NCBI RefSeq assembly: GCF_029714405.1
Contig: NZ_CP121650.1
Span: 4,283,001-4,347,000, forward strand
Source of the DNA: Bradyrhizobium sp. CB82
Lineage (GTDB): Bacteria > Pseudomonadota > Alphaproteobacteria > Rhizobiales > Xanthobacteraceae
DNA length: 64,000 nt
Direction: 5' to 3'
Shown here: piece by piece, positions 4,091 through 29,440 of the stretch
Numbering within the stretch: the stretch's first letter is position 1
Layout of the letters: each line of letters opens with the position of its first letter
Made by a program: the position numbers and the translations under genes
The notes under the pieces: generated by a model
The model's database searches: none
The model's input: only the letters and a program-made list of their open reading frames with translations
What the model was told of the DNA's origin: nothing

Positions 4091-5884
4091 ATGATGACCA
4101 GCAAACCGATCGAGACCGACGTGCTTGTCGTCGGCAGCGGCCCGGCCGGCGCGACGGCGGCAGCGCTGCTCGGCATGTACGGCGTCAAGCACATCTTGGT
4201 GACGAAATATGGCTGGCTGGCTGACACGCCGCGCGCCCACATCACCAACCAGCGTGCGATGGAGGTGCTGCGCGATCTCGGCCTCGAGGACAAGGCGGTG
4301 GCGCAGGCGGTGCCGCAGCATCTGATGGCCAACAACGTGTTCTGCGAAAGCCTCGCCGGCGAGGAGTTCGGCCGGCTCTATTCCTGGGGCAATCATCCCT
4401 CGCGCAAGGCGGATTACGATCTCTCCAGTCCGACCCGGATCTGCGACCTGCCGCAGAATTTGCTCGAGCCGATCCTGATCGAGGCCGCCGGCCAGCGCGG
4501 CACTTCGCTGTGCTTCAACACCGAGTTCGTCGACCTGGTGCAGGATGCCGACGGCGTCACGGCAACGGTGAAGGATCGGCTATCCGGCGAGACCTACCAG
4601 ATCCGCGCGAAGTATCTGATCGGCGCCGATGGCGGCCGCAGCCGGGTTGCCGAGGTGATCGGGCTGCCGATGGAGGGGCAGATGGGCCGCGCCGGCAGCA
4701 TGAACATCATCGTGCAGGCGGACTTAAGCAAATACGTCGCGCACAGGCCGAGTGTACTCTATTGGGTGCTGCAGCCTGGCGCTGAGATCGGCGGCATCGG
4801 CGCCGGCCTGATCCGAATGGTGCGGCCCTGGAACGAATGGCTGATCATCTGGGGCTACGACATCGAGCAGGGCGAGCGCAAGCTCTCTAATGACGAGGCG
4901 ATCTCGATCGTGCGCAATCTCGTCGGCGACGAGACGTTGGAGGTCAAGGTTCGCTCGACCTCGACCTGGACCGTGAACGAGATGTATGCCGGCCACTACG
5001 CCTCCGGCCGCGTGTTCTGCGTCGGCGATGCCGTGCACCGCCATCCGCCGACCAACGGCCTCGGCTCCAACACCTCGATCCAGGACTCCTATAATTTGTG
5101 CTGGAAGCTGAAGCTGGTGCTCGAGGGCCATGCGGCGCCGTCGCTGCTCGAGACCTATTCGGCTGAGCGCCAGCCGGTCGGCAAGCAGATCGTGACCCGC
5201 GCCAACAAGAGCATCGGCGACTTCCCGCCGATCTTCGAGGCGGTGGGACTTGTCGCCTCGACCGATCCGATTGAGGCGCGCAAGGCGATCGCCGCGCGCA
5301 AGGCGCCGACCGCCGAGGGCAAGGCGCGCCGCAAGAAGCTCTATGAGGCCATCGCCAACAAGAGCTACGAGTTCAACTGCCACGGCGTCGAGATGAACCA
5401 GCGCTATGGCTCGACCGCCGTGGTGTCCGACGGAACGCCGATGCCGGCCTTCAGCCGCGATCACGAACTTTATTATCAGGCCACCACCTGGCCCGGCGCG
5501 CACTTGCCGCATGTCTGGGTCGAGCATCAGGGCAAGCGCAAATCGACGCTCGATCTTGTCGGCAAGGGCCGTTTCACGCTGCTCACCGGGATCGGGGGCG
5601 ATGGCTGGAAGGCGGCGGCTGCCGCGATCGAGAAGGCCTACGGCCTGCCGGTCGATGTCGTCACCATCGGCCCGCAAGGCTGCGATGCGCTCGACATTTA
5701 TGCCGACTGGTATCGCCAGAGCGAAGTCGACGAGGACGGCTGCGTGCTGGTGCGTCCCGACATGTATGTCGCCTGGCGCGCCAGAGAGGCGGCAGTGAAT
5801 GCCCCCGACGTGCTGCTCGACGTGTTCGGCCAGATCCTCGGCCGTAGCGCGAAGGCGCAGGCGAAGTCCGTCGCCGCCGCGTGA
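4091..5884 (+). CDS. FAD-dependent phenol/resorcinol-type hydroxylase (TfdB/GraA-like)
   Basis: The protein has 597 residues. The start at 4091 (or 4094) follows an AAGGAGAG ribosome site; an in-frame ATG at 4055 overlaps the dioxygenase stop. Group A flavoprotein monooxygenase motifs are present: the dinucleotide-binding VVGSGPAGATAA near the N-terminus, the GADGGRSRV (DG) motif near residue 180 and the GDAVHRHPPTNGLGSNTS (GD) motif near 315, with a C-terminal thioredoxin-like domain. Length and layout match 2,4-dichlorophenol 6-monooxygenase and resorcinol hydroxylase large components. In this operon the likely product is hydroxyquinol, from resorcinol or a related phenol. No resorcylate decarboxylase or separate flavin reductase gene is visible nearby. 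Confidence 0.88.
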   Translation: MMTSKPIETDVLVVGSGPAGATAAALLGMYGVKHILVTKYGWLADTPRAHITNQRAMEVLRDLGLEDKAVAQAVPQHLMANNVFCESLAGEEFGRLYSWGNHPSRKADYDLSSPTRICDLPQNLLEPILIEAAGQRGTSLCFNTEFVDLVQDADGVTATVKDRLSGETYQIRAKYLIGADGGRSRVAEVIGLPMEGQMGRAGSMNIIVQADLSKYVAHRPSVLYWVLQPGAEIGGIGAGLIRMVRPWNEWLIIWGYDIEQGERKLSNDEAISIVRNLVGDETLEVKVRSTSTWTVNEMYAGHYASGRVFCVGDAVHRHPPTNGLGSNTSIQDSYNLCWKLKLVLEGHAAPSLLETYSAERQPVGKQIVTRANKSIGDFPPIFEAVGLVASTDPIEARKAIAARKAPTAEGKARRKKLYEAIANKSYEFNCHGVEMNQRYGSTAVVSDGTPMPAFSRDHELYYQATTWPGAHLPHVWVEHQGKRKSTLDLVGKGRFTLLTGIGGDGWKAAAAAIEKAYGLPVDVVTIGPQGCDALDIYADWYRQSEVDEDGCVLVRPDMYVAWRAREAAVNAPDVLLDVFGQILGRSAKAQAKSVAAA

Positions 5885-20875: not shown

Positions 20876-21045
20876 TAAGCGCGAAATTGATATTTTACAA
20901 GCTCGTCTGACATTCACACTCTGGTGCTCGCTGCCCAGGTTGCTGGCGCCTCGAGAGATGAACGAGATCCGAGAGAGGTGCGGCCCAAGGCACGCCGAAA
21001 CAAAACTTGCTGGATTTAGGGACCTTACAAACCATCAAGAGGGGA

Positions 21046-22413
21046 ATGACAGTCGTGCTGACTTATCAAGACAATCGAGTTCCAGCGAGCACGCTCCGCA
21101 AGGTCGTCAGCGCCGCTGCCATCGGTAACTTCGTTGAGTGGTTCGATTTCGCCGTATACGGCTTCCTTGCAACCGTTATCGCCAGCCAGTTTTTTCCGAG
21201 CTCGGACGTAAGCCTGGGGCTGTTGAAGACATTCGGCGTGTTCGCGGTCGCCTTTGGTATGCGTCCGCTCGGGGGCGTATTCTTCGGAATTCTTGGCGAC
21301 AAGCTCGGGCGAAAGAGCATTCTTTCGTTGACCATCCTGCTTATGGCCGGCGCCACCACATTTATCGGGCTCCTGCCGTCCCACGCCGCCATTGGCGTCA
21401 TGGCGCCGGTGCTCTTGACTGTTCTGCGCTGTGTCCAAGGCTTTTCGGCCGGTGGGGAATATGCCGGTTCCGTAGCCTACGTCATGGAGCATGCGCCGCG
21501 CGACCAACGGGGCTGGTATGGCAGCTTCGTTCCAGTTTCAACCTTCACGGCCTTCGCAAGCGCTGCGCTGCTGGTGTTCGTCCTTGAAAGCAGCCTGACG
21601 GCCGAAGCCATGTCCGGTTGGGGCTGGCGCGTACCATTCCTTGTGGCTGCGCCTCTCGGCCTGATCGGGCTCTACCTGCGGTGGCGACTGGAAGAAACAC
21701 CCGCGTTCCAAGCCATGTCGTCGGAGAAGAAATCGGAAGGTCACTCCAAGCTTGCCGATACGCTGCGTGATCAGGGATCATCCATTCTTCGCCTTGGCGC
21801 ATTCATCTCCCTGACCGCGCTCTCATTCTATACGTTCACGACCTACTTCGCGACCTATCTTCAAGTTGTCGGGAATCTCACGCGACCGCAGGCCCTTCTG
21901 GTGTCGACGGTTGCACTTCTTTTTGCCGCTGCTTGTTGCCCCGCTGCCGGAGCGTTCACGGACCGAGTGGGGCGGCGCAAAACCGTAGCAGCCATTGGCG
22001 GATGGGTGGTGCTTACCGTCCTTCCTGCTTTCTGGCTCGCCACCTCGGGTTCACTCCCACTTGCAATCTTAGGAGTGCTCCTTCTGGCCGTAGGCGCTCT
22101 CGCCAGCGGCGTCGTAACGGCGGCTCTGTTGTCGGAAACCTTTCCGACACGCACGCGGTACACCGCCTCTGCCCTGACCTACAACGTTTCCTATACGATC
22201 TTCGGCGGCACGGCTCCCTTGATGGCCACCTGGCTGATCGGGACGACCGGCAACAATCTGGCGCCTGCTTTCTATCTCATGGCAATCGCAGTGCTCGCTT
22301 TGATCGGTGGATTGGCCCTGCCCGAGACCTACCGCATCTCCTTGATGCAGGACGACGGCAGGCGTGATGGCGATACAAGTTTGCGCATCGCCACCAGGAA
22401 CTCTGCGGCCTAG
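21046..22413 (+). CDS. MFS transporter, metabolite:H+ symporter (MHS) family
   Basis: The protein has 455 residues from the ATG at 21046 behind GAGGGG. It has twelve membrane segments. SAAAIGNFVEWFDFAVYGF near the start, GDKLGRKSIL in the first cytoplasmic loop and the LRCVQGFSAGGEYAGSVAYV segment mark the ProP/ShiA (MHS) group, which imports betaines, proline, shikimate or dicarboxylates. Its neighbours (DUF5943 protein and M19-like protein) also accompany dimethylglycine-type catabolism in pseudomonads, so a betaine-like substrate is a reasonable guess. Confidence 0.9.
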   Translation: MTVVLTYQDNRVPASTLRKVVSAAAIGNFVEWFDFAVYGFLATVIASQFFPSSDVSLGLLKTFGVFAVAFGMRPLGGVFFGILGDKLGRKSILSLTILLMAGATTFIGLLPSHAAIGVMAPVLLTVLRCVQGFSAGGEYAGSVAYVMEHAPRDQRGWYGSFVPVSTFTAFASAALLVFVLESSLTAEAMSGWGWRVPFLVAAPLGLIGLYLRWRLEETPAFQAMSSEKKSEGHSKLADTLRDQGSSILRLGAFISLTALSFYTFTTYFATYLQVVGNLTRPQALLVSTVALLFAAACCPAAGAFTDRVGRRKTVAAIGGWVVLTVLPAFWLATSGSLPLAILGVLLLAVGALASGVVTAALLSETFPTRTRYTASALTYNVSYTIFGGTAPLMATWLIGTTGNNLAPAFYLMAIAVLALIGGLALPETYRISLMQDDGRRDGDTSLRIATRNSAA

Positions 22414-22587
22414 GCGCCGAGTCTCGATATTTCGCAGAAATGGACAGTGACGATTTGATTGAAGTTTCGCTTCGCTTGGCGGGTGCTTTCGAAATCCATG
22501 ATTGGCGACTTGCCGAGCGGTCGCCGATTTCAGAGGGCTGCGGCCAAGCGACATACGCGCTCTTGCCTCAATGATTGGGAGATCATC

Positions 22588-23112
22588 TTGCGGCCAACGA
22601 TCGATATCGACGTCAACGAGGAAACTGGCGTTTGGGAAACCGACGGACTTCCGATGCTTTACGTTCCCCGGCACTTCATGGCGAACGTCCACAACGCCGT
22701 TGAAAGCGAACTGGGCCTTGCCGCGTACAAAAGGGTGCTGGATGCTGCCGGATCCAAGTCAGCATATTACTGGTGCAAAAGGCAGGACGAGATTGGTCAA
22801 TTCGACGGGGCTCAAGTCTTCGAGCGCTACTTCCAACGATTGACGGCACGAGGCTGGGGGCAGTTCAGGATCGAGACTCTCGACGCTCGGGCTGGATCGG
22901 CAATCGTCACCCTGAAGAACTCGATCTATGTTCTGCAAAATGACGGCAAAGCGGATCATCCTGTTTGCTATATGTTCGAAGGTTTCCTGAGCGGGAGCTT
23001 TCGGTATGTCGCGGAACGCCAAGGACATTCGGTAGGCGCGATAGAATGTCGCGAAGTGCAGTGCGAGGCCATGGGCTTCGATAATTGCAGGTTCGAGCTC
23101 GGAGCAAAATAA
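22588..23112 (+). CDS. DUF5943 / V4R-domain protein
   Basis: The protein has 174 residues from a TTG at 22588, behind GGGAG at good spacing; homologs begin at about this point. It reads RPTIDIDVNEETGVWETDGL at the start, and its second half is a V4R-type small-molecule binding domain with the conserved Cys pair region CREVQCEAMGFDNCRFEL. Its function is unknown. A homolog lies beside an M19-like gene and dgcAB in the Pseudomonas dimethylglycine locus (from memory), matching its position here before the M19-like gene. Confidence 0.8.
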   Translation: MRPTIDIDVNEETGVWETDGLPMLYVPRHFMANVHNAVESELGLAAYKRVLDAAGSKSAYYWCKRQDEIGQFDGAQVFERYFQRLTARGWGQFRIETLDARAGSAIVTLKNSIYVLQNDGKADHPVCYMFEGFLSGSFRYVAERQGHSVGAIECREVQCEAMGFDNCRFELGAK

Positions 23113-23329
23113 AGCAACTCCAGCAAAAGTGCGAAGCGGTTTCGCACCTGGATCTGCGCCGCAAGCAAGAAATAAAAGCAAATCTGGCGAGCCGGATTTC
23201 GCCCAACAGAGCAAACATCTTCACTTTGGCGTCCCGCATGCCGGGAACGCGACCATTCACCCGGAGCGGGCAAGACACCCGTCAAAGCCGACCGACGGCT
23301 ATCCGCAAATCAACTGAAGCGAGGAACCC

Positions 23330-24322
23330 ATGGAGCAATCCGCGAAAACGATTCACGAAAGATCCATTGTCATCGACGGATTGATCATTTCAAATTGGGG
23401 AGAGGATGTTTTCAAGGCAATGCATGCGGCGGGTTTGACCGCGGCGAACTGTACGTGCAGCGTCTGGGAAGATTTCCAAGGTACTGTCGATAATCTGGTG
23501 AGGTGGAACGGCTGGTTTCGCGACTTCTCAGGCTACATCCTCAAGGCGGAAAGCGTCGCCGACATCCGCCGCGCGAAGGACCAAGGCAAGACCGCCATCA
23601 TATTGGGAATGCAGAATACGTCTGCGTTCGAAGACCAGATCGGCTATGTGGAAGTTCTGCGGACGCTTGGTGTCCGGATCGCCCAAATGACCTACAACAC
23701 GCAGAACTGGGTCGGCAGCGGGTGCTATGAATCCACCGATGGCGGGCTTTCCGATTTCGGGCGAGATGTCGTCGCCGAGATGAATCGGGTCGGCATGCTC
23801 TGCGATCTCAGCCATGTCGGTCCCAAAACATCCCGCGATGTTATCGACGCATCCAGCCGGCCGGTCGCCTATTCGCACTGCCTTCCCGCTGCGCTGAAGA
23901 GCCACCCTCGGAACAAGTCTGATGAAGAATTGCGTTACATCGTGGACAAGGGCGGCTTCGTGGGGGTTACAATGTTCCCACCCTTCCTCGAAAAAGGCAT
24001 CAATTCGAACGTGGACGATTACATCTCTGCTATCGATTACGTCATCAATCTCGTCGGAGAGGGATCTGTCGGCATTGGCACGGATTTCACCGAAGGATAT
24101 GGGACCGACTTCTTCAATTGGATCACCCATGACAAGGGCTTTGGGCGACAGCTGACCAAGTTCGGGGAGATCGTAAACCCCGAAGGTATCCGTGAGATTC
24201 GTGATTTTCCCAATCTGGCGGTGGCAATGGAGCGGGCGGGCTGGAATGCGAAGAAGATCGAAAACGTCCTTGGGTTGAACTGGTTGGCGCTGCTTGAAAC
24301 TGTTTGGTCCTCCAGGATGTGA
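23330..24322 (+). CDS. M19 (renal dipeptidase)-like protein lacking several metal ligands
   Basis: The protein has 330 residues, with GAGG ahead of the ATG. The fold signatures of membrane dipeptidases are present: CDLSHVGPKT with its His, RPVAYSHCLPAAL with its His, and VGIGTDF with its Asp. The N-terminal metal motif HxD is absent (SIVIDGLIISNWGED reads Leu and Ile there) and the bridging Glu is replaced in ILGMQNTSAFEDQ. I believe this variation is shared by the subfamily found beside DUF5943 genes. It is therefore unlikely to be an ordinary dinuclear dipeptidase; a mononuclear hydrolase is possible. Confidence 0.85.
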   Translation: MEQSAKTIHERSIVIDGLIISNWGEDVFKAMHAAGLTAANCTCSVWEDFQGTVDNLVRWNGWFRDFSGYILKAESVADIRRAKDQGKTAIILGMQNTSAFEDQIGYVEVLRTLGVRIAQMTYNTQNWVGSGCYESTDGGLSDFGRDVVAEMNRVGMLCDLSHVGPKTSRDVIDASSRPVAYSHCLPAALKSHPRNKSDEELRYIVDKGGFVGVTMFPPFLEKGINSNVDDYISAIDYVINLVGEGSVGIGTDFTEGYGTDFFNWITHDKGFGRQLTKFGEIVNPEGIREIRDFPNLAVAMERAGWNAKKIENVLGLNWLALLETVWSSRM

Positions 24323-24446: not shown

Positions 24447-24944
24447 TCACCCCCGCGACATCTTTTCAAACCGCTTGATCAACCTTTCCCTCTTCAGTCG
24501 CGACAACCGCTGGATCCAGAACATCCCGTCGAGCTGATCGATCTCGTGCTGGTGGCAGACGGCGCGCAAGCCGTCCGACTCCTCGGTCTGCATGTTGCCG
24601 TCCACATCCCGATAGCTGATCCGGACGCGGGCATGGCGCGTGACCTCGTCGTTGACGCCGGGCATCGAGACGCTGCCTTCGCGATGCAGGATCATCTCGG
24701 GTGAAGCCCACGTGATCTCCGGATTGACGTAGGTCCGCGCGCCGTCCTTGGCGTCGAGTTCGAGCACCACGACGCGCACGGGGATGCCGATATGCGGCGC
24801 TGTGATCCCGATGCCGGGGGCGGCGCGCATCGTCTCGAGCAGATCCCTTGCAAGCTCTTGCAACGCGTCGTCGAACACGGTCACGGGCCGTGCCGGGATC
24901 GCGAGCCGGCGGTCGGGATAGCGGACGATCGGGCGGATGGTCAT
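24447..24944 (-). CDS. Peptide-deformylase-like protein with altered active site
   Basis: The protein has 165 residues from the ATG at 24944. Overall it is a clear deformylase (RPIVRYPDRRLAIPARPV, the long helix, RMISYRDVDG-like strand). Motif 1, normally GxGxAAPQ, is GIGITAPH (His51 for Gln). Motif 2, normally EGCxS, is EGSVS (Ser91 for the metal-ligand Cys). Motif 3, normally HExxH, is HEIDQ (Gln137 for the second His). With two of three metal ligands changed it should not be a housekeeping deformylase. It is the last gene of an importer/C45/RpiR operon. Confidence 0.85.
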   Translation of the reverse strand: MTIRPIVRYPDRRLAIPARPVTVFDDALQELARDLLETMRAAPGIGITAPHIGIPVRVVVLELDAKDGARTYVNPEITWASPEMILHREGSVSMPGVNDEVTRHARVRISYRDVDGNMQTEESDGLRAVCHQHEIDQLDGMFWIQRLSRLKRERLIKRFEKMSRG

Positions 24945-25023
24945 GATCTGGTGTTCGACGGTGACGGAGTCCAAAGCAGCGTAGCGCAGGTGGCGTTGCT
25001 GCCATGAGCAGACCGCCGGGCGG

Positions 25024-25941
25024 TCAGCCAACCTCTATGTTCATCTCCGCAATCAGCCGCTCGCGACCCGCCAGGGAGTTTAGCGCCTTGTCTCCCAGTT
25101 CCCTCGCGACAAGGTTGAGCAGCGCTTCACAGAAGACGACATAGGCGCCCATGCTGTTCGAATAGAAGCTGCTAGCGTGGGGGATGAAGAAAGCGTGCTC
25201 TGCGGGAGGAACGAGCGGTGACGACCGGGAATCCGTAATCGCGACAACCGTCTGGCCGTTCGAAGCCGCGACCCGGGCCACCTCCGCGACGCTGCGCGTA
25301 TAGGGCGCGCAGCTGGCGACGATGACGACGTCGCCCCGCTCGAGCTGTGACAATGCCTCGGCGACGCCAAGGCGCGGCGCATCCAGAAGCGCGACGTCCG
25401 AGCGCACCATTCCCAGGCAATAAGTGAGGAAGCTCGCCAGCGAGTGGAATTGGCGAACACCATGGACACGAACACGGCGGGCGTTTGCCAGGAGCCTTGT
25501 AGCCCCTTGCAGAGCGGCTCCGTCCAGCTGTCCGAGGAATCCGTCGACATTCGCTGCCGTTTCCCGCGCCAGCTGCACGAACGTCTCGACTTCGGCATTG
25601 CCGACGGACGGTGCGGCCATGAGCCGACCGGCCTGGCGGCTATAGAAATATTGCTGGTCGTCAGCGATGGCCTTGCGGAAGACCGCCTGGAAATCGCTGA
25701 AGCCCTCGAAGCCGAGTCGTTTCGCCAGTCTGGTCAGCGTCGACGGATTGATGCCGAACTGATCGGCAAGCTCCGAGATCGAGCGAACCGCCGACTGTTC
25801 CGGCGCTTCCACCAGCTTTGCGAATACATCATGGGCTTTGGCGCCGAGCGAAAATCCTGCCTCGTCGCGGCCGATCGAGAGCGCGAGTGCCCTGAGATCC
25901 TCGATGGTGCGCGGCGGCTCCGCGACGGCTTGCCCTGGCAT
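25024..25941 (-). CDS. MurR/RpiR family transcriptional regulator
   Basis: The protein has 305 residues from the ATG at 25941. The N-terminal helix-turn-helix reads ELADQFGINPSTLTRLAKRL and the C-terminal SIS domain starts near RRVRVHGVRQFHSLASFL, with GDVVIVASCAPYTRSV as the sugar-phosphate-binding loop region. It lies between the C45 gene (14 bp gap) and the deformylase-like gene in one minus-strand series, so it probably controls this operon. Its effector may be a phosphorylated sugar or a related acid; that is not shown by sequence. Confidence 0.9.
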   Translation of the reverse strand: MPGQAVAEPPRTIEDLRALALSIGRDEAGFSLGAKAHDVFAKLVEAPEQSAVRSISELADQFGINPSTLTRLAKRLGFEGFSDFQAVFRKAIADDQQYFYSRQAGRLMAAPSVGNAEVETFVQLARETAANVDGFLGQLDGAALQGATRLLANARRVRVHGVRQFHSLASFLTYCLGMVRSDVALLDAPRLGVAEALSQLERGDVVIVASCAPYTRSVAEVARVAASNGQTVVAITDSRSSPLVPPAEHAFFIPHASSFYSNSMGAYVVFCEALLNLVARELGDKALNSLAGRERLIAEMNIEVG

Positions 25942-25955
25942 CGGCCTGATCCTGT

Positions 25956-27014
25956 TCACGCCGCGAAGGGCACCAGCCCATCCCGCATATCGAAGCGAGC
26001 TGCTTCGTGCGATCGATCGTAGACAGACCACTCGACCTTGTCAGCCCCGACCCGGAAGACGGCGCTCGCGAGCGTGTTCTCGACGTCGCTATCGGCCGGG
26101 TCCGTGCGGTAGATCGGCAGTTCCGCGTCGGCTGCGTCCCACAGGATGCCGAGCGCGCGTCCCTGCGGTTCGGATTGGAGCGTTTGGCCGACCAACTCCT
26201 CGCCGCGCCGTTGTCGCACGCCGGACGAACCGGTGACGATCTGCGACATGCGCCCGGTGTCGGCATGGATCAGATGGTTCGAATGGACACGCGGCGCCTG
26301 GACCCGATCGACCGAGAGTGCCCGGGCGGTGAACTCGACGCTGAGAAGCCGCTCGTCCCCGGCTTGCGCCAATGTCAGGTGGAATGCGCCGGCGCGCGGG
26401 GCGGATTTGAGCACGGTGAGAGCCGCGTCGAGGTCCGGTGCGTCGAGGATCGCGCGGGCGAGCACCATGCGCGGCGTGCCGGCGCCGCCGGCCAGCGGCC
26501 TGATGTTGTTGACGGTCTGGACCATTCCCTTCGATGTCGCCGCAAATGTGTGTCCCGGCAGCGAGCCTGGGTACACAAAGGCTGTGAACGGTGTGCCTCC
26601 TTCGGATGCAACATGGGCAAGGGCGCAGTGGCCGGCAAAGTCGGGGGCGCCATCCTCGTTGTGGCCGATCACATGCGCGGAGCCGGGTAATTGCACGGTC
26701 GTGCAGCCATCCGGCGCCATCGCCCAGATATCGCCGCGACAGTTCCACAGGAAAACGTCGTCGAATGGCATGGCGAGCCCGACGGCGAGGCCCTGCAGCT
26801 CGGCCCAGTATCTTGGAAACCGTTCCCGGACGATGTCCGCCATCACGCCGATCAAGGGATCGCTGCGGCGTGTGTTGAGTTCGCGCCACGCAGCGGAGGT
26901 ACGGAAATGGTCCTGCAGGGCCGCTCGGCCGAAGCGCCCAAGCGCAGCTCCGACATCAAACGGCGAACCTGCGACATCGACGAAGGAAAGCCGGCGGCCG
27001 TCGTCATACGACAT
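25956..27014 (-). CDS. C45 family autoproteolytic acyltransferase/hydrolase
   Basis: The protein has 352 residues. DVFLWNCRGDIWAMAPDGCT holds the self-cleavage site; Cys104 after Asp-Gly would become the N-terminal nucleophile, as in acyl-CoA:isopenicillin N acyltransferase. VIGHNEDGAPDF and GMVQTVNNIRP are further family blocks. No signal peptide is seen, so it acts in the cytoplasm. The start overlaps the upstream ATPase gene by 11 bases. In this operon it would hydrolyse or transfer an acyl group of an imported N-acyl amino acid or amide (inference). Confidence 0.85.
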   Translation of the reverse strand: MSYDDGRRLSFVDVAGSPFDVGAALGRFGRAALQDHFRTSAAWRELNTRRSDPLIGVMADIVRERFPRYWAELQGLAVGLAMPFDDVFLWNCRGDIWAMAPDGCTTVQLPGSAHVIGHNEDGAPDFAGHCALAHVASEGGTPFTAFVYPGSLPGHTFAATSKGMVQTVNNIRPLAGGAGTPRMVLARAILDAPDLDAALTVLKSAPRAGAFHLTLAQAGDERLLSVEFTARALSVDRVQAPRVHSNHLIHADTGRMSQIVTGSSGVRQRRGEELVGQTLQSEPQGRALGILWDAADAELPIYRTDPADSDVENTLASAVFRVGADKVEWSVYDRSHEAARFDMRDGLVPFAA

Positions 27015-27732
27015 GTTGCAGAAACTCTTTCAAGCGAGGGTTTTGCGGATTTGCCAGCAGCTCCCGCGGCTCGCCGTCGACTGCGATCTTGCCACCTTCC
27101 ATGAAAATCAGCCTGGTGCCGACCTTGCGGGCGAAGGCCATCTCGTGGGTGACCACGATCATGGTCATGCCTTCCTCGGCCAGCGCCTGCATGACGCGCA
27201 GCACTTCATGCCTCAGTTCTGGATCGAGTGCGGACGTGGGCTCGTCGAACAGCATCAGCTTCGGCTTGACGGCAAGCGCGCGTGCGATCGCGACGCGTTG
27301 CTGCTGGCCGCCGGAGAGCTCGCTCGGATAGTGGTGAGCGCGGCCGGCGAGGCCGACCTTGGCGAGCATTTCCAGCGCCTGCTTTCGCGCATCCTGATGC
27401 GACTCGCCGCGCACGCGGCGCGGGCCGAAGGCGACGTTCTCGAGCGCCGTCATTTGCGGAAACAGATTGAACTGCTGGAAGACCATGCCGGCTTCCTGGC
27501 GGATCATGCGGACCATGCGGCCGCCGGCCTTGACGCTGATGCCATCGACGACGAGATCACCGCCATTGATCTCCTCCAGCGCGTTGATGCAGCGGAGCAG
27601 CGTCGACTTGCCGGAACCGGAGGGGCCGATCAGCACGACCTTCTCGCCAGGCTCTATCGAAAGGTCGACCTGGTCGAGGATCGTGACCTGGCCGAACCGC
27701 TTGGTGACCTTCTTGAACTCCACGATGCTCAC
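27004..27732 (-). CDS. Polar amino-acid ABC transporter ATP-binding protein (GlnQ-like)
   Basis: The protein has 242 residues from the GTG at 27732, which overlaps the permease stop (GTGA). It has Walker [17 protein letters not shown], the Q-loop [13 protein letters not shown], the signature [16 protein letters not shown], Walker [15 protein letters not shown] and an H-loop VVTHEMAFA. This pattern is diagnostic of GlnQ/HisP-type importers for polar amino acids. Confidence 0.95.
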
Positions 27733-28385
27733 AGGATGCGCATCCTCTTTTCGGTCATCCTGAGGATAAGCGTGAGCGCGCCGGTCATGATCAGGTAGAA
27801 CATCGCCACGGCGGACCAGATTTCGACGGCGCGAAAGTTGGCCGCCATGATTTCCTGGCCTTGCCGCGTGAGTTCGCCGACACCGATGACGATGAAGAGC
27901 GACGTATCCTTCAGGCTGACGATGAACTGGTTGCCCAGCGCCGGAATCATGCGGCGGAAGGCGAGCGGGCCGATGATGTAGAGAAGCACCTTCCAAAGTG
28001 GTAGGCCGAGCGCCAGACCGGCTTCCCGCAATCCGCGATGGACGGAGAGAAACGAGCCGCGCACGATCTCGGCGATATAGGCTCCGGCGTTGACGATGAT
28101 GGCCATGATCGCCGCTGCGAGCGGGTAGATGCGGACATTCGCGAGGATCGGCAACGCGAAATAGATGAACATCACCTGCACGATGATCGGCGTGCCGCGA
28201 ATGAGCTCGACATAGGCGAAGGCAATGCCGTTGAGGACGGCGTTGCCGTAGGCGCGTGCCAGGCCGGCGGCGAAGCCGATCAGCAGTCCGCCGGCGAGCC
28301 CGGCCAGCGCGATCAGCACGGTGAGGCGGGCGCCCTTCAAGAGCTCAGGCAGGGCCTGCCAGATAACCGACCACTCGAAATCCAT
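27729..28385 (-). CDS. Polar amino-acid ABC transporter permease
   Basis: The protein has 218 residues. It has five or so membrane segments; the EAA loop reads [20 protein letters not shown] and the [19 protein letters not shown] block is typical of HisM/GlnP permeases. Only one permease gene is present, so the channel would be a homodimer. It follows the binding-protein gene after a strong intergenic stem-loop. Confidence 0.95.
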
Positions 28386-28406
28386 GAGAGCTTTCCTTCA
28401 GGGAAG

Positions 28407-28429
28407 GCGCGCCGGCCAGGCCGGCGCGC
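28407..28429 (-). other. Perfect 11-bp stem-loop between binding-protein and permease genes
   Basis: The arms gcgcgccggcc (28407-28417) and ggccggcgcgc (28419-28429) are perfect inverted repeats around a single base. The element lies in the gap between the binding-protein stop (28445) and the permease start (28385). There is no T run after it, so partial termination or mRNA 3'-end protection is more likely than a full terminator. Confidence 0.6.
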
Positions 28430-28444
28430 GCCACGGAACGTGGA

Positions 28445-29197
28445 TCAGCTCTTCGGCGGCTCGGCGCCGAACCACTTCTTGTAGATGGCGGTGTAGGTGC
28501 CGTCGCCCTTCAGCTTGACCAGCGAGGCGTTGACCTTGGCGATGAGCTCGCTGCCCTTCGGGAAGGCCATGCCATATTGCTGGGCCATCATCTGCGGGCC
28601 GACGGACTTCACTTTCCCCTGGCCGTTGGTCTTGATGTAGTAGAGGACGTTGGGGGTGTCGTGCATTGCGGCGTCCGCGCGTCCGGTCGCGACTTCGAGA
28701 TAGGCGTTGTCGCTGTTGGGGAAGAGGCGGAGCTCCGTCCCCTTGAAGTGCTCCTTGGCGTAGTCGGTTGCCGACGTGCCGGTCTTCACGGCGAGCGTCT
28801 TGCCGCCAAGGTCTTCCGGCCCCTTGATCGTGCTGTTGGTTGGCACCATCAGAAGGAATCCGCTGTCGTAATAGCCGTCCGAAAAGTCGATGACCTTCTT
28901 GCGCTCGTCCTTGATGGTAATGCCGGCCAGCCCGACGTCGACCTGCTTGGTCTGGAGCGCCGGGATGATGCCGTTGAAGTCCATCGGCTGCAGCGTGTAC
29001 GTCACGCCGATATCCTTGGCGATGGCGGCCCACAGGTCGATGTCGAAGCCGACATACTTGTCGCCCTCCTTGAACTCGAACGGAACAAAGGCGGTGTCTG
29101 TTGCGACGATCAGGTCGGCGGCACGAGCAGGTTGGCCGAGGGTGAGGGTTGCGGCGACGGCCGCGGCGGCGGTCAGGCTTGCGAGCGCGAATTTCAT
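28445..29197 (-). CDS. Polar amino-acid ABC transporter substrate-binding protein (GlnH-like)
   Basis: The protein has 250 residues from the ATG at 29197. The Sec signal peptide ends at PARAADLIV. The mature protein begins [20 protein letters not shown] and continues [17 protein letters not shown], the standard SBP_bac_3 opening, with [19 protein letters not shown] as the hinge block. It is the first gene of the minus-strand operon. The ligand is unknown; proteins of this family bind glutamine, glutamate, arginine, opines and similar compounds. Confidence 0.95.
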
Positions 29198-29258
29198 TTC
29201 AGGGTTCCCCTTTTGCTGGGAGTGCCACGGAGCGCTGACAGCATCGCACAAATCTTGA

Positions 29259-29285
29259 AAATTAAAAGTGCATTTTGTTGTGCAA
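29259..29285 (-). promoter_or_regulatory. Possible promoter of the GlnH-like operon
   Basis: On the minus strand TTGCAC (29285-29280) and TAATTT (29264-29259) are 15 bp apart in a locally A+T-rich stretch. A TGCA-N8-TGCA dyad (29269-29284 on the plus strand) overlaps the -35 region and could be an operator for the RpiR regulator. Spacing is short, so this is tentative. Confidence 0.3.
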
Positions 29286-29440
29286 TGCATTGTAAATTTG
29301 CGCATTCCGGCGGCACCCAGCCCCCGCAGGGGTCTTCGCCGCATCGGCGACGGCCAGTCCGCAGGCTTGAATGGCCTGCCCCGTCCCGGCGACGAGAGCA
29401 CCCGGCTCCTTTGCATGGGGTTGTTTTCGAGTTTTTGGTG

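Follow-up and report, generated by a model that had tools for sequence, protein, structure and literature searches.

In a 64,000-nucleotide stretch of the Bradyrhizobium sp. CB82 genome (10.1 Mb; label G000), here called the window, five genes for a glutamine-type importer, a C45 family enzyme and an RpiR-type regulator form a genuine conserved unit, glnH-glnP-glnQ-C45-rpiR, which is scattered among soil bacteria. The deformylase-like gene that follows them on the same strand is a neighbour and not part of the cassette. On balance we lean towards the view that the cassette is self-regulated and brings in a glutamine-like compound with a side-chain amide, which is then hydrolysed in the cytoplasm.

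The original prediction described six genes in one direction, separated by overlaps or short gaps, and all six were found on the minus strand at 24447-29197 of the window. The six family names that it assigned agree with Pfam and NCBIfam profiles. The operon begins with a GlnH-type periplasmic binding protein that has the pocket of E. coli GlnBP (28445..29197; NF007029, 398.3 bits against a cut-off of 303), followed after 59 bp by a GlnP-type permease (27729..28385; NF007028, 364.8 bits, cut-off 303). The permease gene overlaps by 10 bp with that of a GlnQ-type ATPase (27004..27738; NF007027, 435.1 bits, cut-off 379), and all three transporter proteins exceed the NCBIfam cut-offs for glutamine equivalogs. 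GlnQ in turn overlaps by 11 bp with a C45 family autoproteolytic acyltransferase/hydrolase, made as a proenzyme (25956..27014; NF040521, 240.7 bits, cut-off 85; PF03417, 103 bits, cut-off 23.2). A gap of 14 bp leads to an RpiR/MurR-type regulator (about 25024..25941; HTH_6, 34.5 bits, cut-off 28.3; SIS, 43.8 bits, cut-off 25), the start of which was chosen, an earlier GTG start making it overlap with C45. The peptide deformylase-like gene lies 79 bp further on (24447..24944; PF01327 and NF009484 matches above cut-off).

The five-gene order was also observed in Mesorhizobium, Nitratireductor, Rhizobium, Agrobacterium and Paraburkholderia, and its recurrence in several genera indicates that the arrangement is more than chance. 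Gene content was compared across 32 C45 loci outside the window (L101-L132), a sample among the matches listed from which L133, at 27% identity, was excluded; these loci are related to one another and the counts are not independent. The content was taken from a tblastn table, since the table of open reading frames (ORFs) missed some C45 and glnHPQ genes. The importer genes adjoin C45 in 28 of the 32 loci, including four from Advenella and an Alcaligenaceae bin in which the two are divergent (L127, L128, L129, L131), and a downstream RpiR gene is present in 23. The importer genes are absent from four loci (L119, L123, L125, L132), where C45 occurs together with an aminotransferase; two of these, from Pusillimonas and Gluconacetobacter, have an N-formylglutamate amidohydrolase (FGase) family gene beside C45 (L119 9035-9892, L125 9060-9866). 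Plasmid annotations place further genes around the unit: BKACE, RpiR, aminotransferase, glnHPQ and C45 on Shinella pShin-01; BKACE, aminotransferase, glnHPQ, C45 and RpiR on Paracoccus pPAN2; RpiR, aminotransferase, a carboxymuconolactone decarboxylase family protein, glnHPQ and C45 on a Pantoea dispersa plasmid; and BKACE, glnHPQ and C45 on R. leguminosarum pRL1, for which the gene table has gaps. The earlier proposal that importer and C45 enzyme belong together is thus borne out by conserved gene order in several genera, with RpiR included.

Within Bradyrhizobium the unit is rare, with a C45 ortholog in 2 of 60 genomes, that of the window itself and G017. Bradyrhizobium and Mesorhizobium proteins are 83-88% identical for C45 and 93-97% for GlnQ, and because this high identity accompanies a patchy presence, horizontal transfer of the cassette is suggested. 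The cassette has sharp edges. Matches to the window start at 24980-25023 and end at 29218-29306 (L134, 24980-29306 at 94.4% identity; L104, 24983-29301; L103, 25011-29218; L106, 25023-29301), and the extent common to other operon-bearing genomes is 24980..29306 on the minus strand. An empty site was found in the relative G027, where the deformylase-like and LysR stretches lie 26 bp apart compared to 4,483 bp in the window, and G015 (L063) is likewise empty between these two genes.

The deformylase-like gene lies outside the stretch common to the window and Mesorhizobium, and its distribution is of a different kind. Of 35 other Bradyrhizobium genomes, 31 carry an intact copy, G016 and G032 have pieces of it and G006 and G020 lack it; among the 31 genomes with an intact copy, only G017 has a C45 ortholog, and there the RpiR/C45 block is about 7 kb from the deformylase-like gene (L033). 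None of the 32 other Bradyrhizobium loci that carry the gene (L033-L048, L052-L066 and L072, the last seen on one side because of a contig end) has it adjoining RpiR or C45. Viewed from the C45 side, the listed loci include five from Bradyrhizobium, and in three of these (L101, L102, L105), the only such cases among the 32, the deformylase-like gene is beside the operon. We read this adjacency as one insertion region that was later rearranged: in L105 the gene (5015-5508) is upstream of glnH rather than downstream of rpiR, and this copy is broken by a frameshift near the last motif. The original prediction had proposed a neighbourhood search for joint occurrence of C45 and deformylase-like genes; this comparison revealed no widely conserved linkage.

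The sequence of the deformylase-like protein points in the same direction. Its motifs are GIGITAPHIG, EGSVS and HEIDQ, with EGSVS in place of EGCLS and HEIDQ in place of HExxH, so that it lacks the metal-site motifs of catalytic deformylases, EGC(L/V)S and HExxH, and had correctly been called altered. The cysteine of the former motif and the second histidine of the latter are metal ligands in deformylases. Among 36 Bradyrhizobium copies, EGSVS is present in all 35 that are readable and HEIDQ in 33, with L066, L105 and L072 broken or partial at HEIDQ. A deformylase with standard motifs (EGCLS, HEIDH) is encoded elsewhere in the CB82 genome (9143264, locus L001). The window protein resembles UniRef-named peptide deformylase-like proteins in its PF01327 and NF009484 matches, and intact Bradyrhizobium orthologs share its variant motifs; it differs in that it stands beside a C45 operon, as it does in only a few Bradyrhizobium. 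Collectively, the linkage, the empty site and the altered metal site do not bear out a role for this gene as an operon partner.

The C45 protein has the features expected of a self-processing enzyme. The GCTT motif, in which the expected nucleophile Cys follows Gly, was found in all 34 C45 loci. In the window protein this Cys is Cys104, within DG|CTT, and G103 and C104 are invariant across 28 aligned proteins. No signal peptide was apparent on inspection by eye. The structure model is of high confidence, with a mean predicted local distance difference test (pLDDT) score of 90.4 and a predicted template modelling (pTM) score of 0.91. At E <0.001, a sequence comparison with the PDB gave 2x1d and 2x1c as its sole relatives. 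The enzyme belongs to the same family as isopenicillin N acyltransferase (IAT; 2x1d), Tan, AzsT and DobA, and has a Gly-Cys site like the cleavage site described for IAT and Tan (PMC10194958). Among the bacterial members, AzsT has been characterised and hydrolyses the amide of an N-succinyl group (PMC10445470), and removal of an N-succinyl group has been proposed for DobA (PMC12154687). This makes amide hydrolysis the likely chemistry of the Bradyrhizobium enzyme and is in line with the earlier expectation that it acts on an N-acyl amide bond. AzsT and DobA differ in serving the biosynthesis of diazo and hydrazone compounds, whereas the Bradyrhizobium C45 sits in an import operon.

To characterise the importer, pocket residues were compared with those of E. 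coli GlnBP across 30 binding proteins, those below 50% identity being left out. In simulations of E. coli GlnBP, the alpha group of the ligand contacts G68, T70 and R75 and its side chain contacts D10 and A67, with further contacts at D157 and G119 (PMC7400645). D10, A67, G68, T70, R75 and D157 are conserved in all 30 proteins, and of the 16 pocket positions compared all but 116 and 119 match E. coli GlnBP. Because the glutamine pocket is kept, an alpha-N-acyl amino acid is unlikely to be taken up; such a ligand would probably clash with a GlnBP-like pocket, and the N-acyl amino acid of the original prediction is a poor fit. A side-chain amide, on the other hand, fits the logic of such a pocket. 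The importer resembles E. coli GlnHPQ in having one binding protein, one permease and one ATPase, in its glutamine equivalog scores and in its conserved contact residues, and differs from it in sharing an operon with C45 and RpiR and in having a 45-bp dyad of its own.

This dyad, GCAAAT-N5-ATGCAT-N11-ATGCAT-N5-ATTTGC, was found by comparing the regions before glnH and is a putative RpiR operator; in the window it is at 29257..29301, with no strand assigned and 2 mismatches. It occurs with identical spacing in 21 of the 32 listed loci, namely in 21 of the 23 with a downstream RpiR and in none of the nine without. At up to 3 mismatches, the CB82 genome has a single copy of the dyad. So do 20 of 22 other genomes; the two exceptions are G109 (L113, Nitratireductor), with two copies, and G116, with none, its site (L126) carrying 4 mismatches. 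A reversed control pattern gave 0 matches in all genomes scanned, and no match was obtained in 100 shuffles of the window. From this pattern we infer that RpiR probably binds the dyad and mainly controls its own operon. In a scan of four plasmid loci, the dyad was present in L171 (21/24 positions) and absent from L173 and L174. The second copy in L113, the sole two-site genome of the 22, is at 4514-4558, upstream of an ORF of 330 aa (4674-5663). The idea that the aminotransferase and BKACE genes share this operator was considered and rejected, with no second site scoring at least 16/24 in 17 sequences except L113, against a baseline of 15 (of 24) reached by 30 base shuffles of one locus.

Taken together, these parts suggest how the cassette might work. 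In the presence of ligand, RpiR would leave the 45-bp dyad before glnH. GlnHPQ would then import a glutamine-like amino acid with free alpha-amino and carboxyl groups and a side-chain amide, the favoured candidates being gamma-glutamyl conjugates and omega-N-acyl diamino acids, and the cytoplasmic, self-cleaving C45 enzyme would hydrolyse the side-chain amide of the imported compound. Both this hydrolysis and the substrate class are what we infer.

Several observations weigh against this proposal. Sugar phosphates are often the signal for RpiR regulators, and this gives no hint of an amino acid as the inducer. Two of the listed loci (L121, L122) carry RpiR but no dyad, and no dyad was found in the Paracoccus plasmid locus L172, which also has RpiR. 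The aminotransferase and BKACE genes, which suggest catabolism, are missing from the Bradyrhizobium operon. In the binding protein, position 119 is Ser or Ala, not Gly, and position 116 is Thr, not Ser, in 30/30 proteins. Finally, the pocket suits an ordinary glutamine importer equally well; L-glutamine may be all that the protein binds, in which case the link to C45 would be indirect.

The last point leads to the alternative that the operon simply imports L-glutamine and is controlled by its own RpiR, while C45 acts on some internal amide or peptide that has nothing to do with the import; co-transcription would then reflect shared induction. We consider this rather unlikely. The equivalog scores of all three transporter proteins and the near-identity of the pocket, with two of 16 positions changed, speak for it, but the importer and C45 occur together in 28/32 listed loci from several genera, four of them with divergent genes, suggesting a shared substrate, and in the four listed loci without glnHPQ the C45 gene sits with an aminotransferase. 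It is quite improbable that C45 is instead an N-acyltransferase working like isopenicillin N acyltransferase, with imported glutamine in the place of that enzyme's amine acceptor and N-acylglutamine as the product. An acyltransferase gave the Pfam family its name, and the two PDB relatives noted above are in keeping with it. Bile salt hydrolase is a related N-terminal nucleophile (Ntn) enzyme. It is reported to be able to conjugate amines as well (PMC10881385). Set against this, no conserved acyl donor gene was seen beside C45 among the selected neighbour ORFs that were annotated, and the recurrent neighbours are aminotransferase and BKACE genes, with the FGase family gene in two loci.

In the six-gene system of the original prediction, an N-acyl amino acid or opine would be imported and then lose its acyl or formyl groups through the action of both C45 and the deformylase-like protein. 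This system was rejected on linkage, the empty site and motifs, and we regard it as highly improbable. The direct downstream position of the deformylase-like gene on the same strand, 79 bp away, favours it, and the same junction occurs in L101 and L102. This is outweighed by the many genomes with an intact deformylase-like gene of which G017 alone has C45, by the empty site in G027 and the frameshifted copy upstream of glnH in L105, by the replaced motif Cys and second His, and by the position of the gene outside the stretch shared with Mesorhizobium.

With hydrolysis of an imported side-chain amide as the preferred reading, the aminotransferase and BKACE genes found elsewhere give a weak hint that a beta-amino acid can be the amine released. 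As a possible substrate, beta-ODAP was also considered, for which the literature gave a single hit. A more specific version, which is speculative and has little probability in our view, concerns plant gamma-glutamyl conjugates of beta-amino acids. GlnHPQ and C45 would form the entry step of an undescribed pathway, C45 freeing glutamate and the beta-amino acid; a class III aminotransferase would yield the beta-keto acid, and BKACE with acetyl-CoA would give acetoacetate and an acyl-CoA, Bradyrhizobium having the entry step alone. For beta-alanine, malonate semialdehyde would be the intermediate; it is a non-native substrate that is accepted by some BKACE enzymes (PMC11961710). In the CB82 genome, the closest homolog of the C45-linked aminotransferase is 62% identical (at 6146450); as a candidate for the linked gene it was rejected, with no C45 match in the 19 kb read. 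It forms a pair with another RpiR-type regulator, class III aminotransferase and regulator being followed by an SBP_bac_3 gene (pair at G000:C1 6145559-6147784, L146 8560-10785), and the same RpiR-aminotransferase pair is present in G027 and G008. The best BKACE match in the genome is 26% identical, with no clear ortholog.

On the other side of the deformylase-like gene, the plus strand of the window encodes an MFS transporter, a DUF5943/V4R protein and an M19 dipeptidase (21007-24322), with a G+C content of 0.55-0.59 compared to 0.63 for the window; this stretch is perhaps another acquired block. The dipeptidase is very close to the solved structure 2i5g, and close homologs (63-64% identical, one with an in-frame stop) were found in 2 of 59 other Bradyrhizobium genomes. 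These genes were rejected as part of the system, as a search at E up to 1e-10 and 40% of query length gave no M19 or V4R match in the 32 listed C45 loci and one MFS match, at 37%.

No paper on the function of the operon was found in searches of open-licence PMC papers. It is made of ordinary parts that are named in NCBI annotation, and their combination and regulation look undescribed. A glnH-glnP-glnQ-C45 locus on the chromosome of Klebsiella michiganensis has been described as the origin of transposons that carry the kanamycin resistance gene aphA1 (PMC12670165). There, too, glnQ has a gene for a C45 family peptidase as its neighbour, and a related segment includes a partial aspC; the locus differs in having aphA1 as the next neighbour, and in the available sections of that paper the genes are treated as resistance-gene context and no operon function is given. 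C45 relatives are present on 149 plasmid records of Escherichia, Salmonella, Shigella and Klebsiella, those listed being 46.2-46.5% identical over residues 48-341, and in the one record read, an E. coli IncX1 plasmid (L175), the C45 relative is beside aph(3')-Ia. The K. michiganensis locus is a published origin for segments of this kind.

The deformylase-like gene illustrates that adjacency in one genome can arise by insertion. For the C45 family, in which few tested substrates were found, the cassette ties the enzyme to a defined importer, to pathway genes that recur beside it and to a candidate operator present in single copy, so that the C45 substrate can be sought directly, by binding-protein screening or with a reporter.

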